From Campylobacterota bacterium (GTDB taxonomy: Bacteria > Campylobacterota > Campylobacteria > Campylobacterales > Arcobacteraceae), in the NCBI GenBank assembly GCA_003643835.1, contig QMKX01000005.1:1-64000 (forward strand): a DNA stretch of 64,000 nt. The letters run 5' to 3'. The notes under the pieces are model-generated. The model saw only the letters and a list, made by a program, of their open reading frames with translations, did no database searches and was not told the origin of the DNA. Shown piece after piece: positions 19,879 to 49,348 of the stretch. Within the stretch, counting starts at the first letter, position 1; each line of letters starts with the position of its first letter. The position numbers and the translations under genes are program-made.

Positions 19879-22088
19879 AATTTTGTTCCAAGTGAAAACT
19901 CAAAATTTTCTATTTTGTCTGTATCGTCTGGATTTATCGCATTTGCCCAAATTAATCTAATAGGCCCTATCATAGAAAACCATTCAATTGCAGCACCATA
20001 TCCGTATTTTTGAATATCGTCAAAATCTTTTTCTCCTATTGTGCCTGCATCTGCAAACAATGCCCACCTTAGCTTTGCACTTGGCACAAGAGGAAAACTT
20101 ATCCCAGCAGTAGTTGAAGCAACTCTTGTGTATGGATTGTTTATCCTATCAGGTGATTTGAAAGCAGCATATCTATAACCACGGACAGTATTTACACCAC
20201 CTAAAACATAAGAATCACCTTCATGTATCTCGCCTAAGTCATCTATCGTTCTTATGTTAAATTTATATCTTAATACCATATCTATATCTATATGTTTATT
20301 TAGTCCATAATATGTTCTAAAACTTGTATTTGTTCGCACATATCTTGAATCACCTCCAACTCCAGCATACTCAACACTAAAGCTAGTATCTATACCACTT
20401 CTCGGCACATAATAATCATCTGTGTTGTTGTATTTTATATATGGAGTTATTGAACTTGTAATATAATGAATATTATCAGTTTTGTTTATGTCATATGACT
20501 CCGTCACCTCTTCAAGCCTATACAATATGCCAGTTCTTGCATATCTTGACAACTTTTTGCCAATACCAAGTGTGCCACCAACTCTTGTGACATCAAATGT
20601 ATCATCTGTATACTCTATAGAACTATCAGATCGATAAAGCGATGCACTTCCATTGTAGCTACTGTCATTTATAGCTGGGTTATACAATGATATTGTGGCA
20701 CTTTGACTAAATTTTGATTTTGCTAAACTTAAACCAAATTTTTTGCTACTACCAAAAGTATTTCTATCATCAACAGATGCATTGATGGATAAGCCATCAT
20801 GGCTACCATACCCACCGCCAAACATAAGTGTGCCCGTTCTTGCTTCTTTGACTTTAACTATCAAGTCCATTTTATCCTCAGCTACTCTTTGTTGTTTTAT
20901 CTCAACACTATCAAAAAAACCAGTTCGTCTTAAGGCATTTGTACTATCTTTTATATCTCTTAAACTATATAACTCTTTTGGGCCCAGATAGATATCTCGC
21001 CTTATAACTCTATCAAGCGTTCTTATATTACCGTCAATTATTATATCGTTTATGTATACCTTTTTTCCTAATGTTACATTGAAGTTAATATCAGCTACAT
21101 CGCCTTGTTTTTTTAAATTATATACTACTTTTACAAAAGCATAACCACCCTCACCTATTTCAAGCTTTATAAACTCAATATCTTTACGTAAATTTTTTAT
21201 ATTGAATACATCATCTTTTTTAAGCTTGAGTTTTTTTATGATTTTATTTGGGTCTTGAACTTGTTTGTCCATAGATATCAAAATATCACCAACTTTATAT
21301 TGAATACCTTCAGTTAAGGTGTAGCCAAGCTTTGCTTCTATTGTGTTGTAGTTGATATTTGCACTTACTTTTGATATGGCTACATCAAGAAAACCATGTT
21401 CAAGATACAGCTCTTTTAGCCGCATATCTTCGTATTGGAGTTGTTCAGCTTGCAATATGCCATCATTTTGTCCAAAAAACCAAGGAAACCATTCTACTTC
21501 TTTGTTTGCAACTATATCATCAAATTCATTACTTTCAAAATACTCTGCTTCACCATAATCAACTTCGGTTATCACTATTTCATCGCCTTTGTTTATATTG
21601 ATTGTTAAAGCTATCAAAAATTTATCTACATTCTCTTTTTCTATCTCTACAATATTGTTAACATAACCTTCGCTTCTCAATATTGATTTCAGTTTATTTT
21701 TTGCTTTGTTTATAACTGAAGCTGAATATATGGCACCTTTTCTCAAGCCAATTATCTCAAGCACAGTTTCTATATCTTCTTTTCGTGTTTTGTAGCCTTT
21801 CATATCAATATTGACAATAATTGGTTTTTCAATAAATATAAAAAGAAGCTCCCCACTATTTATGTGCACTTCAATATCATCAAAATACCCAAGAGAGAAA
21901 AACTCTTTTATAACTTGGTTTAATTTTTTTGTGTCAAGTTCGCCACCTATTTTCATATCTACCATAGCATTTGCAACGACCGGCGATACTCGAGTTAGAT
22001 TTTTAAACTCTATGGATTTAACTGTTTGTGCATACATAAAGCTTGACAACAAAAAAAACAGGATATATATTTTATTCATAAGTTTCAT
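19875..22088 (-). CDS. bamA: outer-membrane protein assembly factor BamA
   Basis: The essential 737-residue insertase of outer-membrane barrels. It has a signal peptide (YILFFLLSSFMYA), about five POTRA domains (residues ~20-350), and a 16-strand C-terminal barrel with the VRGY loop-6 motif in the context GGVNTVRGYRYAAF. It ends EFSLGTKF with the terminal Phe. Length is slightly short but normal for the phylum. It lies 4 bases downstream of the S4-domain gene. Confidence 0.94.
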   Translation of the reverse strand: MKLMNKIYILFFLLSSFMYAQTVKSIEFKNLTRVSPVVANAMVDMKIGGELDTKKLNQVIKEFFSLGYFDDIEVHINSGELLFIFIEKPIIVNIDMKGYKTRKEDIETVLEIIGLRKGAIYSASVINKAKNKLKSILRSEGYVNNIVEIEKENVDKFLIALTININKGDEIVITEVDYGEAEYFESNEFDDIVANKEVEWFPWFFGQNDGILQAEQLQYEDMRLKELYLEHGFLDVAISKVSANINYNTIEAKLGYTLTEGIQYKVGDILISMDKQVQDPNKIIKKLKLKKDDVFNIKNLRKDIEFIKLEIGEGGYAFVKVVYNLKKQGDVADINFNVTLGKKVYINDIIIDGNIRTLDRVIRRDIYLGPKELYSLRDIKDSTNALRRTGFFDSVEIKQQRVAEDKMDLIVKVKEARTGTLMFGGGYGSHDGLSINASVDDRNTFGSSKKFGLSLAKSKFSQSATISLYNPAINDSSYNGSASLYRSDSSIEYTDDTFDVTRVGGTLGIGKKLSRYARTGILYRLEEVTESYDINKTDNIHYITSSITPYIKYNNTDDYYVPRSGIDTSFSVEYAGVGGDSRYVRTNTSFRTYYGLNKHIDIDMVLRYKFNIRTIDDLGEIHEGDSYVLGGVNTVRGYRYAAFKSPDRINNPYTRVASTTAGISFPLVPSAKLRWALFADAGTIGEKDFDDIQKYGYGAAIEWFSMIGPIRLIWANAINPDDTDKIENFEFSLGTKF

Positions 22089-22092
22089 TTTA

Positions 22093-22338
22093 TCACAATA
22101 ACCTTATATAACATTCTTGTTGAGATTTTGCTGTTGATTTTGTGTGTGGTATTTCCAAGATTTCATAGTTTTTTTCATATTCGAGATATTTAATTGTAAT
22201 TTTATCCCCTATTTTTACATCTTTTGCTTTTTTGATGACAGCTCCGTTTATAAATACAGTGCTTGAGTTTATCATATCGGTTGCTACTGCTCGTCTTTTA
22301 GTGATATTGACAGCGTTTAAAAACTTATCTATTCGCAT
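22093..22338 (-). CDS. S4-domain RNA-binding protein (HslR/YbcJ-like)
   Basis: An 81-residue stand-alone S4 domain: [19 protein letters not shown] at the start and FINGAVIKKAKDVKIGDKI in the middle. Stand-alone S4 proteins of this type bind rRNA or stalled ribosome complexes; the precise target is unknown. It overlaps the YrdC-like gene by one base. Confidence 0.85.
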   Translation of the reverse strand: MRIDKFLNAVNITKRRAVATDMINSSTVFINGAVIKKAKDVKIGDKITIKYLEYEKNYEILEIPHTKSTAKSQQECYIRLL

Positions 22339-44498: not shown

Positions 44499-44912
44499 CT
44501 AATATACAAGCTTTATAATTATTTTTTTCTTATTTTTTAATACAAATTTAGATTCGTCAAAATTTGCACCTCTAAACATAGGTCGGATATTGTTTGAAAA
44601 TCCATAAGCCTCTTTTGGAATCCCAAAAAAATTTTTATCTAAAATTTTATTTTGATTTTCATCGTGAAAAACTGCTACAGCATAGGTTCCATCTGGTATA
44701 TTTTCAAATATATATGTCAATGTTTTGCTATCTATAGACATATCAATACCTTTAAAATTTTTGTCTCTTTTAGCAAAATTTTCATCATTTTTATCATACA
44801 AACCTATAGAAATTTTCCCTTTTTTGTTTACTATATTTTTAACATTTACTTCAATACTACTTGCAAATATTGCTGATACTAATACCAATAAACACAAAAC
44901 TATTTTTTTCAT
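44499..44912 (-). CDS. DUF2141 family secreted protein
   Basis: 137 residues with a signal peptide (VLCLLVLVSAIFA). The DUF2141 core is visible: GKISIGLYDKN, FENIPDGTYAVAVFHDENQNKILD and GIPKEAYGFSNN. These are small periplasmic beta-sandwich proteins of unknown function. It follows the CrtI-like gene by 13 bases and likely shares its promoter. Confidence 0.88.
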   Translation of the reverse strand: MKKIVLCLLVLVSAIFASSIEVNVKNIVNKKGKISIGLYDKNDENFAKRDKNFKGIDMSIDSKTLTYIFENIPDGTYAVAVFHDENQNKILDKNFFGIPKEAYGFSNNIRPMFRGANFDESKFVLKNKKKIIIKLVY

Positions 44913-44925
44913 TTCATATCCTTTT

Positions 44926-46512
44926 TTATTTTAAAATTTGATTTGCACAAAACCAACCACTTAAAATTGCTCCTGTAAATCCTCCACCTGGGTTTGTCCA
45001 TGCGGAAGCAAAATACAAATTTTTGACGACTGATTTATTTGGCGCTCTAAACAATCCTGATTGTTCTGGAATTTGAGCATAACCATATGGAGATCCACCC
45101 GGGTTTAGAGTATATCTCATGATAGTCTTAGATGTCCCTACTTCATAACACTCTATCTCCTTTTTTATACCCGCAAACTTCTTTTCAAGTTTGTCAATAA
45201 ATATCTGTGCTATAGCCTCTTTTTTATTATTGTATTGTTCTTTACTTAAATTGTCCCAATCTTCAATATAATCAACCGTGCAAACTACACCGAAAGTTTT
45301 GTCTTTTGTAGTAAGACCTGAGTTGATTTGACTATAATCAACAAACACATAGTTTCTATTTTTAATGTCTCCTTTATGATTTGATAACATATCTTTTTGT
45401 GTTTTAACTGATTTATCAAAAAAGAAAGTAGAATAGTGCTTGCTACCAAGCTCTTTAATGTCTCTTTTAAATCCAATATAGATAGATATCAACGAGCAGG
45501 AATTTTTTAAGTTTTTTATATGTTGTTTTAGTTTTATTTGATTTTTATTTGGCAACATATTCATAACATTTGGTATAGCGCAATTTGCTATTGTGATATT
45601 TGCATAAACTTCATTTGATATATCTTTATCGTTTGTTTTTTGGTATTTAACTCCGACAGCTTTGTTGTTATGCATCAATATTTGTGTCGCTATTTGTTGT
45701 TTCAATATTTGTCCGCCATTGTCTACGATAATTTTCGCAAGATAATCAGAAAGCTTTTGCGAACCGCCTTTTATGAAGTGCCCTCCTCCGTTGTAATAAC
45801 TAGCTTGTGCGGCACTGTAATATATCAAGGACATAGTATATGGGTCATCGTGGTAATATTGTATATTTGCCAATAAAACCAATTTTAGCTCTTCATCTTT
45901 TATGATACTGTCAAGAAAACTACCTATATCTCTATAATTCCAGAAAATTAAATTTGGGTGCAACAAAAGAAAAAGAGGGTTTGTGAGTGAAGCAAATTTT
46001 GCAAATCTGCTTGAACTATTGCTAAGATATGGGAAAAAAATTGGAAAAAATGGCAACAATAATATTTGTTTCCATTTTTGAAGTGGTAGTTTTTTTATCT
46101 CTTTGTGTATATTATTTATAACTTTGAAGTATTTTTTGATACCTTTTGCTTCTATTGGAAATCTGTTTATCAAGACTTTTGTGGCTTCGTTTATACCATC
46201 GGGCACAACTATATCAACGTTTTCATTTTTAAAACGATAAAACTCTGGGATCTTCAAAAATTCTATATTTTCGGATATTTTTAAATCATCAAAAATCTCT
46301 TTTTTAAAATCATTTTTGTCTAATCCATCCAATTCGTGAAGTCCTACTTCCATAGTATAATCTTTTCTTTTGAAAGTAGTCGCACAGCCGCCAACTATAC
46401 TGTGTTGCTCTATCATACATACTTTTTTGCCCTCTTTTGATAGTTTTGCACCAGCTATCAAGCCACCGAGCCCACTACCTATTATCGCTATATCAAAGCT
46501 ATTTTTTGTCAT
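44926..46512 (-). CDS. CrtI/CrtISO-like FAD-dependent oxidoreductase
   Basis: A 528-residue flavoprotein. The N-terminal dinucleotide-binding motif is IAIIGSGLGGLIAGAKLSKEG followed by VGGCATTF. The C-terminal part contains LYFASAWTNPGGGFTGAILSG, the signature of the phytoene desaturase / carotenoid isomerase / retinol saturase group. No carotenoid synthesis gene (crtB, crtE) is in the window, so the substrate is open. It sits downstream of a Crp/Fnr gene and behind a predicted FNR-type promoter. Confidence 0.8.
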   Translation of the reverse strand: MTKNSFDIAIIGSGLGGLIAGAKLSKEGKKVCMIEQHSIVGGCATTFKRKDYTMEVGLHELDGLDKNDFKKEIFDDLKISENIEFLKIPEFYRFKNENVDIVVPDGINEATKVLINRFPIEAKGIKKYFKVINNIHKEIKKLPLQKWKQILLLPFFPIFFPYLSNSSSRFAKFASLTNPLFLLLHPNLIFWNYRDIGSFLDSIIKDEELKLVLLANIQYYHDDPYTMSLIYYSAAQASYYNGGGHFIKGGSQKLSDYLAKIIVDNGGQILKQQIATQILMHNNKAVGVKYQKTNDKDISNEVYANITIANCAIPNVMNMLPNKNQIKLKQHIKNLKNSCSLISIYIGFKRDIKELGSKHYSTFFFDKSVKTQKDMLSNHKGDIKNRNYVFVDYSQINSGLTTKDKTFGVVCTVDYIEDWDNLSKEQYNNKKEAIAQIFIDKLEKKFAGIKKEIECYEVGTSKTIMRYTLNPGGSPYGYAQIPEQSGLFRAPNKSVVKNLYFASAWTNPGGGFTGAILSGWFCANQILK

Positions 46513-46530
46513 ATTATATCTTTTTTATTA

Positions 46531-46536
46531 ATTATA
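46531..46536 (-). promoter_or_regulatory. predicted extended -10 of the CrtI-like gene
   Basis: The minus strand reads TGATATAAT, a perfect extended -10 (TGnTATAAT). It predicts a start of transcription near 46524, 12 bases before the ATG. Confidence 0.6.
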
Positions 46537-46558
46537 TCAAATTTATAAAATAATGTCA

Positions 46559-46572
46559 TTGATATATATCAA
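46559..46572. promoter_or_regulatory. perfect FNR-type operator TTGATATATATCAA
   Basis: TTGAT-ATAT-ATCAA equals the FNR consensus TTGAT-N4-ATCAA; with flanking A and T it is a 16-base perfect palindrome. Its centre (46565.5) lies at -41.5 relative to the start predicted from the extended -10 box, the standard class II activator position. It overlaps the stop codon of the Crp/Fnr gene. Confidence 0.7.
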
Positions 46573-47177
46573 TTGAACCCTCTGGTTAAATTCAGCTTTT
46601 TAAGCCTGCTCAAATGCTCTGGTGTGATATCAAGATATGTAGCTATGTGATACTGTGGAACCTTGTGCAAAAGATGTGGTGTATCAAGCATAAACTTATC
46701 AAATCTTTCTTTTGCTGACATTGTTCGTCTTTGAATAGTTATGTTGTGAATATATTTGTAAGCCTCTTCACTCATAATTCTGCCAAATCTATCTGCTTTT
46801 TTTGTGTTATTGTAAATAAACTCAATATCCTTGTAATTTGTCACAACTACTTCACAATCTTCAATAGTATCTATATTCAATTTTGATGGTTTTTGTGAAA
46901 GTAGACTTTCATAATCAACTACAAACAGGTTTGTCATATGAGAATTTTTGTCATTGAAAAATATACTCCATGTGTAATCTTTGCCATTCTCATCTAATAT
47001 ATATGCACGAGCCAATCCGCTATTGATAAACATAAGCTCATGACATATATCGCCAACAAAATGTATGATTTCACCTTTGTTGTATCGTCTTATCTTTAGC
47101 TTTGATTTTATCATACTCCATTCAATAAAATTTAAAGGCACATAATTTTGTATAAACTCTTTGTATTTTGAAAACAT
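46569..47177 (-). CDS. Crp/Fnr family transcription regulator
   Basis: About 202 residues from the ATG at 47177 (a GTG five codons upstream would give 207). A cNMP-type beta-roll covers about residues 25-110 (YNKGEIIHFVGD). The C-terminal winged helix has HIATYLDITPEHLSRLKK. The recognition helix pattern E-H-L-S-R equals the ExxSR of FNR, which reads TTGAT half-sites. There is no N-terminal four-cysteine cluster, so it is not a classical oxygen-sensing FNR. It probably regulates the following CrtI-like gene through the operator at 46559. Confidence 0.85.
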   Translation of the reverse strand: MFSKYKEFIQNYVPLNFIEWSMIKSKLKIRRYNKGEIIHFVGDICHELMFINSGLARAYILDENGKDYTWSIFFNDKNSHMTNLFVVDYESLLSQKPSKLNIDTIEDCEVVVTNYKDIEFIYNNTKKADRFGRIMSEEAYKYIHNITIQRRTMSAKERFDKFMLDTPHLLHKVPQYHIATYLDITPEHLSRLKKLNLTRGFN

Positions 47178-47230
47178 ATGATATGATAACACAATATACT
47201 TAAAAGATAGCTTTTATAAGTAAAGTATAG

Positions 47231-47267: not shown

Positions 47268-47636
47268 ATGAACAACAAACCAAAATACAATCTGTTTAAA
47301 AATACATCATATGCAATAGATGGTCTAATATGTGCTATCAAAACTGAAACATCGTTTAAGCTTGAGCTTGTTATTGGTTTGATAGCCGCGTTGGTGGTAT
47401 TTTTAGCGCCATTTGTTTTATGGCAAAAAATTATCTTGGTATCTACTTATGTTCTCATCTTAATAGTAGAACTACTAAATAGTGCTATAGAAAATATTGT
47501 TGATTTAGTAACTGCCGATATACATCCGCTGGCTAAAAATGCCAAAGATTTAGGTGCAACTGCTGTGCTATTTTCTGTGTGTTTGCATATATTTTGCTGG
47601 ATTGTAGTGACTGTCTATTTTGTCAAATTTTCATAA
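47268..47636 (+). CDS. dgkA: diacylglycerol kinase
   Basis: A 122-residue inner-membrane kinase with three helices and the family signature ELLNSAIENIVDLV (about residues 65-78, with Glu and Asn of the active site), preceded by YAIDGLICAIKTETSFKLEL. It phosphorylates diacylglycerol to phosphatidic acid. It converges on eptA, whose reaction releases diacylglycerol from phosphatidylethanolamine. Confidence 0.95.
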   Translation: MNNKPKYNLFKNTSYAIDGLICAIKTETSFKLELVIGLIAALVVFLAPFVLWQKIILVSTYVLILIVELLNSAIENIVDLVTADIHPLAKNAKDLGATAVLFSVCLHIFCWIVVTVYFVKFS

Positions 47637-47812: not shown

Positions 47813-49348
47813 TTATTTTTTGTTTATTTTTATAAACACTTTATCTTTTCTCAAAATTTTTGTATCAATTGACAACAAACTCAAAATTGTATCATAAAGC
47901 TCTTGCTGTTTGTATTCGCTTTTTTTTGATATTTCTATAGATACAGATGACTTTATGAGCAAAGGTATTTGGGCTTGTTCTGGCGGCAAGTCGATACCAG
48001 GGGGCATACCATGAAATATTCTGCCACCTTCAAGAAGCGACTCTCCATGGTCAGACAGATATACAAATACATAAGGCACACCAGATTTCTCAAGTGTTTC
48101 TATAGCGCTTGATACGACATAATCCACATATAAAATTGTGTTGTCAAATGAGTTATAAAGCTCATCTTTGGTGCAGTTGTTTATGATATCGGCATATTCA
48201 CAAATTGGTTTAAACTTCTCAAATGGTTTTGGATATCTATTTTGATATATCGGTCCGTGGCTTCCTCCACCAAAGTGAAGCACTACAAATTTTTTGCCAC
48301 TTTTGTATGTGGTTAAATCTTTTTCAAACAAAGGTAGAACATCTTCATCGTAGCACTTTTCGTATTTGCAGTTTGATACTTTTATCTCTGGCACCGTGCC
48401 ACAGTTACCGTATAGTTGAAAATTCACATAGCAGCTCGAAGCGATACCTAATGTATCTGCGATAGTTGATAGTTTGATATCATCGCGACTAAGCACTTGT
48501 GGTATAGCCCATATGGTTGAGCCATACTTTGCTATGCCGTTTAATACATGTAGATTTTCTATTTTGCTCAAAAGTGGATTTGTTTTTTTATTATATCCGT
48601 ACAATGAGAAGTTTTTTTGTCTTGAGGTTTCGCCAAGTGCTAACACTACTACTAAATCATCGTTAGATGTTAGTTTGCCTTTTATTTCTATAGGTTTTTG
48701 TTTTGTTTTAAAGTTGTCGTTTATATAGTGTCGCACTATATTTATGCCTGCACCTATATAGTTTGCTGGAACTTGCTGATACAATATGTATTTGTTTGAT
48801 TTATTTGCTGACTTGTGAATAGAATTAAAATTGGTATAAATTATAGCCAGCGTGATACCAAAACTAACAATAAACAAAGCAACTGTTTTGCTGATATGTA
48901 TAAAAAATTTATCGTATTTTATATTTGTATTTGCTACTATATATATAGGAATTATTATCAAAAAAAAAGTATAATATACCATATTCCACGACAACAATGT
49001 GAGCGACTCGCTTTGGTTTGTATAAGCTATATTTAGTAGCATTGACATATCTATGGCTACATTGTATTTATCTATAAAATATGTAGACATTCCAGATGCT
49101 ATTATTATAAAATAGCTAATAAGTTTTAAAATATATTTATGTGACACCAAGCTAAATACAGCCATCCACAAAAAATAACTAGCAAATGCAAATGCCACAA
49201 ATCCTTGTATATCAAACTTATCTTTATCTACAAACCATATAGTAAACTTATCGTAGTTTATAAAATTTGATACTACAAATATAAATGAAGTGAAAAAAAT
49301 GATATACCAAACAATTGATATGTCTTCTCTTTTTTTATAAAAATACAT
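47813..49348 (-). CDS. eptA: phosphoethanolamine transferase (EptA-like)
   Basis: A 511-residue inner-membrane enzyme: about five helices in residues 10-172, then a periplasmic sulfatase-fold domain. The catalytic Thr (about 241) is in LALGETSRQKNFSLYGY, and metal ligands are in VYLSDHGESL and FHGMP. It transfers phosphoethanolamine to lipid A or another envelope acceptor, which often lowers sensitivity to cationic peptides. The start overlaps hldE by 14 bases. Confidence 0.9.
   Translation of the reverse strand: MYFYKKREDISIVWYIIFFTSFIFVVSNFINYDKFTIWFVDKDKFDIQGFVAFAFASYFLWMAVFSLVSHKYILKLISYFIIIASGMSTYFIDKYNVAIDMSMLLNIAYTNQSESLTLLSWNMVYYTFFLIIIPIYIVANTNIKYDKFFIHISKTVALFIVSFGITLAIIYTNFNSIHKSANKSNKYILYQQVPANYIGAGINIVRHYINDNFKTKQKPIEIKGKLTSNDDLVVVLALGETSRQKNFSLYGYNKKTNPLLSKIENLHVLNGIAKYGSTIWAIPQVLSRDDIKLSTIADTLGIASSCYVNFQLYGNCGTVPEIKVSNCKYEKCYDEDVLPLFEKDLTTYKSGKKFVVLHFGGGSHGPIYQNRYPKPFEKFKPICEYADIINNCTKDELYNSFDNTILYVDYVVSSAIETLEKSGVPYVFVYLSDHGESLLEGGRIFHGMPPGIDLPPEQAQIPLLIKSSVSIEISKKSEYKQQELYDTILSLLSIDTKILRKDKVFIKINKK

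Follow-up and report, generated by a model that had tools for sequence, protein, structure and literature searches.

A Crp/Fnr regulator with an FNR-type box at its own stop codon in Campylobacterota, and a possible joint change of recognition helix and operator

The co-evolution of transcriptional regulators and their operators has mostly been inferred from distant families with different regulons. The locus described here, in a window of 64,000 nucleotides from a Campylobacterota draft genome (contig QMKX01000005.1, positions 1 to 64,000), raises the question of whether a Crp/Fnr-type regulator and the perfect FNR-type box at the end of its gene form one circuit, and how the two came to match. 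An earlier note on this DNA had proposed a local class II activation circuit from three signs, namely the box, its placement at -41.5 of a predicted promoter and an ExxSR recognition helix in the adjacent regulator. This first interpretation was partly supported. The gene order along the minus strand is regulator, box, promoter, CrtI-like gene and DUF2141 gene, with the following features:

46569 to 47177, minus strand: Crp/Fnr-superfamily regulator with recognition helix TPEHLSR and Glu at CRP position 181 (PF00027, AlphaFold2, Foldseek)
46559 to 46572, minus strand: operator TTGATATATATCAA, a perfect FNR-type box with 0 mismatches, its slot kept in orthologues
46554 to 46559, minus strand: -35-like ATGACA, overlapping the box by one base, with AATGAC kept in orthologues
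46531 to 46536, minus strand: -10 element TATAAT, extended as TGA-TATAAT, 22 nt past the box
44926 to 46512, minus strand: predicted target gene 1, a CrtI/CrtISO-like FAD-dependent oxidoreductase of 528 aa (TIGR02730 165 bits, below its cut-off)
44499 to 44912, minus strand: predicted target gene 2, a DUF2141 secreted protein of 137 aa (PF09912 110 bits), 13 nt downstream of gene 1

The box is the sole perfect match to TTGAT-N4-ATCAA in the window, and the TGA stop codon of the regulator (46569-46571) falls inside it. ATGACA is close to the -35 consensus and is separated from TATAAT by 17 nt. Transcription is predicted to start at about 46524, which leaves a leader of about 12 nt ahead of the CrtI-like ATG and places the box centre at -41.5 of this predicted start, in a geometry that is conserved; the earlier description of the box and its position was therefore exact. 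No perfect or near box was found upstream of the regulator within the window, and autoregulation through its own promoter was rejected on this basis.

The regulator likely starts at the ATG at 47177 (202 aa), matching its orthologues, within a longer reading frame from a GTG at 47192. An N-terminal cNMP-type beta-barrel domain was identified by PF00027 (31.6 bits versus a cut-off of 27.5), and Pfam HTH_Crp gave no match. The AlphaFold2 model (pLDDT 94.6; helices 131-157, 180-186 and 191-204), combined with Foldseek, contained a long dimerisation helix and a C-terminal helix-turn-helix with a recognition helix, and matched Aliivibrio fischeri FNR (TM 0.80), CRP and GlxR; the nearest solved sequence was 3dn7 (E 7e-18). 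With two cysteines in place of the four of a 4Fe-4S FNR, the protein is confirmed as a predicted regulator without the FNR iron-sulfur cluster, as had been claimed. It also differs from cAMP-binding CRP, whose helix carries R180, E181 and R185, in having Pro at position 180, and its NCBIfam CRP score was 15 bits against a cut-off of 266. The E-x-x-S-R helix and the TTGAT-N4-ATCAA site are both of the FNR type. Neither the A180/Q181 pair nor the TTAAC-N4-GTTAA operator of NssR is present, the window protein having P180/E181 with TTGAT, whereas its orthologues have P180/Q181 with TTAAC-N4-GTGAA.

By itself the box proves nothing, since the genome contains 8 perfect matches compared with 10 for the reversed pattern, and 6 of the 8 lie inside genes. 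Counts in the window at two or fewer mismatches equalled those in shuffled sequence, and box counts were dropped as support because they are at chance level. The earlier note had named frequent equal boxes inside genes as evidence against its own circuit; by this measure the bare box is uninformative, and the three signs were not sufficient support. The position of the box is more telling, as the chance of finding it in a fixed 14-bp slot defined independently by the orthologues is about 4e-6. The one further perfect box that lies between genes (L001) had no -10 element at the right distance, and no second site combining box, TGACA and a -10 element at 22 nt occurred among the listed matches inspected in this genome, so that the regulator appears to serve a single operon.

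The slot was defined from regulator orthologues (43-73% identity) in Campylobacterota genomes of several families. Their usual operator is TTAAC-N4-GTGAA, with variants in the left half (TGAAC, GTAAC, TTCAC) and the right half (GTTAA or GCGAA); it overlaps or abuts the stop codon and is followed by TGAC and then by a -10 element at 22 nt or, less often, 23 nt. AATGA at the regulator stop with TAnnnT 22 or 23 nt further on was found in 42 of 51 family members, the window included, versus 7 of 1404 shifted control slots, and a narrower range for the same slot gave 25 against a shuffle mean of 0.27. Because the slot is kept while its offset from the stop codon (-17 to +1), the reading frame and the C-terminal residues differ between orthologues, selection appears to act on the DNA and not on the protein. 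Several orthologues (L045, L058, L067, L073 and L074) have no adjacent operator. A scan of 22 genomes for the extended element usually gave one or two sites in each, mostly beside the regulator. Altogether, these observations suggest that regulator and operator form a genuine regulatory cassette, conserved among relatives and of a kind already known. Phylogenetic footprinting thus strongly supported the proposed circuit of regulator, operator and next gene, with class II activation suggested by its geometry.

Distant paralogues (27-39% identity) share the layout and have motifs of their own. One of them lies in the window genome (L011, contig 11, about 21570-22160) and has a PQTLSK helix; its stop codon carries an operator-like TGAAT-CTAA-GTGAA-TGAA with TATAAT at 22 nt, and the following gene resembled, by inspection, the isocitrate lyase/PEP mutase family. 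Within the window, a TTAAC at 46580-46590 lies 17 bp farther from AATGAC than in the orthologues, and may be the remnant of an ancestral half-site displaced by a small insertion.

The recognition helix reads P-Q-x-L-S-R in the orthologues and P-E-H-L-S-R in the window, a difference at CRP position 181, the residue that in CRP contacts base pair 7. The window operator has G at this base pair, which is what the published CRP/FNR correlation described below would predict. In the 66 members of the family whose operator was accepted, residue 181 and right-half base pair 7 were combined as Gln-C (47), Gln-A (4), Val-A (4), Thr-T (7), Thr-G (1), Ile-T (1), Ile-A (1) and, in the window, Glu-G (1). With the window left out, the mutual information between the two was reached by 0 of 5000 permutations, which ignore relatedness, so that the value describes a pattern and does not count independent events. 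Since the tree nests the Glu protein within the Gln clade, where its sister, with support 99/86, is the Gln protein from the window's own genus, Glu is the derived state; its codon is GAG, in one switched lineage and a draft assembly. The FNR-type box is likewise a derived state of the window lineage and not the family motif, and we infer that Glu181 and the operator change belong together. Across the CRP/FNR family, residues 180 and 181 correlate with the motif, and NssR, with Q181 and TTAACnnnnGTTAA, falls within this correlation (Rodionov et al. 2005, PMC1274295). A literature search on E181 returned nothing useful.

The reading of ExxSR as an FNR-like signature needs to be narrowed accordingly: only Glu sets the window protein apart, since Ser and Arg also occur in relatives that read TTAAC or TTCAC. 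Nor can the switch be put down entirely to this residue, because operator position 9 went from C to T in the window although Ser184 and Arg185 were kept; as a speculation, Arg185 perhaps turns to G7 once Glu181 is present. Related regulators in which Arg185 is replaced by Gln (L068, L085 and L086) have operators without C at position 9 (TTAAG, TTCAT and TTCAA). Additionally, a distant Crp/Fnr regulator from a different subfamily, which only its box brought to light (L179, positions 883-1520 in genome G096), has the helix LTPETLSR, and the TTGAT box TTGATATAAATCAATGAC lies across its own stop codon, upstream of a hemerythrin-like gene. This pairing of Glu with a TTGAT box in the same cassette layout agrees with the window. 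A tentative reading, to which we give slightly less than even weight, is that regulator and operator switched specificity jointly inside one genus, at one fixed promoter, from Gln181 with TTAAC/TTCAC to Glu with TTGAT, in a family that would form a natural recognition-code series with each gene carrying its own operator at its end. Avoidance of cross-talk with the paralogue L011 could be one reason for such a switch.

In relatives, the operator also precedes CrtI-like genes, even unlinked ones (L134), and DUF2141 operons (L123, L137 and L141). On contigs other than that of the regulator, and with the same -10 spacing, it was found before a DUF2141 operon in G414, which belongs to the genus of the window, and before a CrtI-like gene in G221; the cluster in G089 has a second site, upstream of a gene resembling the SCP2/FMN-reductase one. 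Linked targets include DUF2141, CrtI-like, MMPL with LolA-like and DUF1302, alpha/beta hydrolase and metallo-beta-lactamase-fold genes; judging by these domains, the substrates may be lipids or other hydrophobic compounds. A carotenoid pathway was considered as the function of the target and rejected: phytoene synthase (PF00494) was absent in 14 of 14 genomes, with control genomes positive, and the CrtI-like enzyme is therefore unlikely to be a carotenoid desaturase. In Sphingomonadales, DUF2141 has been reported beside crtG, without known function. No globin gene was found downstream of the box in the window. Near the regulator lie a diacylglycerol kinase gene (47268-47636, plus strand) and a gene for an EptA-like lipid A phosphoethanolamine transferase (47813-49348, minus strand), and the operator was not seen at either.

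The account that we consider probable is a dedicated cassette of one regulator and one operator, most likely acting by class II activation of the CrtI-like and DUF2141 genes, with its specificity rewritten in the window lineage. The regulator, which has no cyclic-nucleotide or iron-sulfur signatures, would bind TTGATATATATCAA, which lies at the 3' end of the gene that encodes it, and would control not its own promoter but the one starting in the 60-nt gap and driving the CrtI-like and DUF2141 genes. As a class II factor it would contact RNA polymerase from -41.5, beside the -35-like ATGACA. The usual operator of the family, TTAAC-N4-GTGAA, would be read through Gln at CRP position 181; in the window lineage Gln became Glu (GAG) and the operator became TTGAT-N4-ATCAA, a change that fits a contact, as made by CRP and FNR, between Glu181 and the C paired with G at base pair 7. 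Both the binding of the regulator to the box and the activation of the targets are what we infer from this arrangement.

Repression through the same site would be the most serious alternative, though an unlikely one. A bound dimer would lie over the upstream end of the strong ATGACA-17-TATAAT promoter, blocking polymerase until a signal released it, and the near-consensus -35-like hexamer, overlapped by one base of the box, and the high conservation of AATGAC and the -10 element, as in an activator-independent promoter, are consistent with this. Repressor sites may sit in many positions around a promoter, however, and class II activation is favored because the -41.5 position is fixed in linked and unlinked copies alike; activation from this position is established for FNR, and NssR acts positively on its targets. 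Activation is also a better account than a chance match in AT-rich DNA, with a regulator that has lost its operator or reads another nearby sequence such as the TTAAC at about 46580-46590. The chance-level frequency of the box and the orthologues without an adjacent operator lend this some weight, but the box sits exactly in the conserved slot, with its low probability there, AATGAC and the -10 element at 22 nt are intact, and the change at base pair 7 fits that at residue 181, which makes coincidence very improbable.

Least probable of all, in our estimate, is that the box serves a different Crp/Fnr factor, either a true FNR or an Nss/Dnr-type nitrogen-oxide regulator. In Campylobacterota the motif attributed to such factors is TTGA-N6-TCAA, and boxes of the same layout precede hybrid-cluster protein genes in relatives. 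Against this, the search of the genome (a 1.43-Mb draft, 96% complete) recovered three Crp/Fnr regulators and one nucleotidyltransferase-type protein; the other two Crp/Fnr regulators carry RV and PQ at positions 180/181 and lack the cysteine cluster of FNR, the window regulator being the only one of these Crp/Fnr proteins with Glu181, and a gene missed at this completeness is possible but unlikely. Elsewhere, in genomes of family f18 (L164-L172), TTGAT-N4-ATCAATGAC with a -10 element about 22 nt away is found repeatedly ahead of the gene for one conserved protein of about 115 aa, and similar boxes lie by hybrid-cluster protein genes (L153-L155).

Dozens of orthologues, each with its operator at one fixed place, allow the operator to be read without guessing and provide a naturally occurring table of residues and bases for the recognition helix of Crp/Fnr proteins, which includes a putative recent switch inside one genus. 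If the two changes are indeed coupled, the Glu form should prefer TTGATATATATCAA and the Gln form TTAACATATGTGAA. The analysis also outlines a candidate Campylobacterota regulon of CrtI-like, DUF2141, MMPL, SCP2/FMN-reductase and hydrolase genes. The names of their domains may point to lipid handling, and no published description of such a regulon was found. Judged from sequence, the locus would represent a lineage-specific specificity change that follows a known residue-base rule, in a cassette of a known kind.

Amongst known systems, the closest solved sequence, 3dn7, is a Crp/Fnr-like protein of similar length from Cytophaga hutchinsonii, for which we know of no operator or target. NssR, the nitrosative stress regulator of Campylobacter jejuni, is a Crp/Fnr protein of the same phylum with Gln181 and the operator TTAAC-N4-GTTAA, much like the Gln-type orthologues, but it controls globin genes, whereas the regulator of the window combines Glu181 with a TTGAT operator located where its own gene ends. 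The FNR proteins of Escherichia coli and Aliivibrio fischeri share with it the ExxSR helix, TTGAT-N4-ATCAA at -41.5 and the fold (TM about 0.8); in contrast to FNR, the window regulator lacks the four-cysteine cluster, is about 17% identical, has a short tail past the recognition helix and apparently has one local target. In the HcpR and DNR groups the motif likewise co-varies with residues 180 and 181 (Rodionov et al. 2005, PMC1274295), but there the correlation is between distant groups with different regulons, whereas here it is found within one family at one fixed site.
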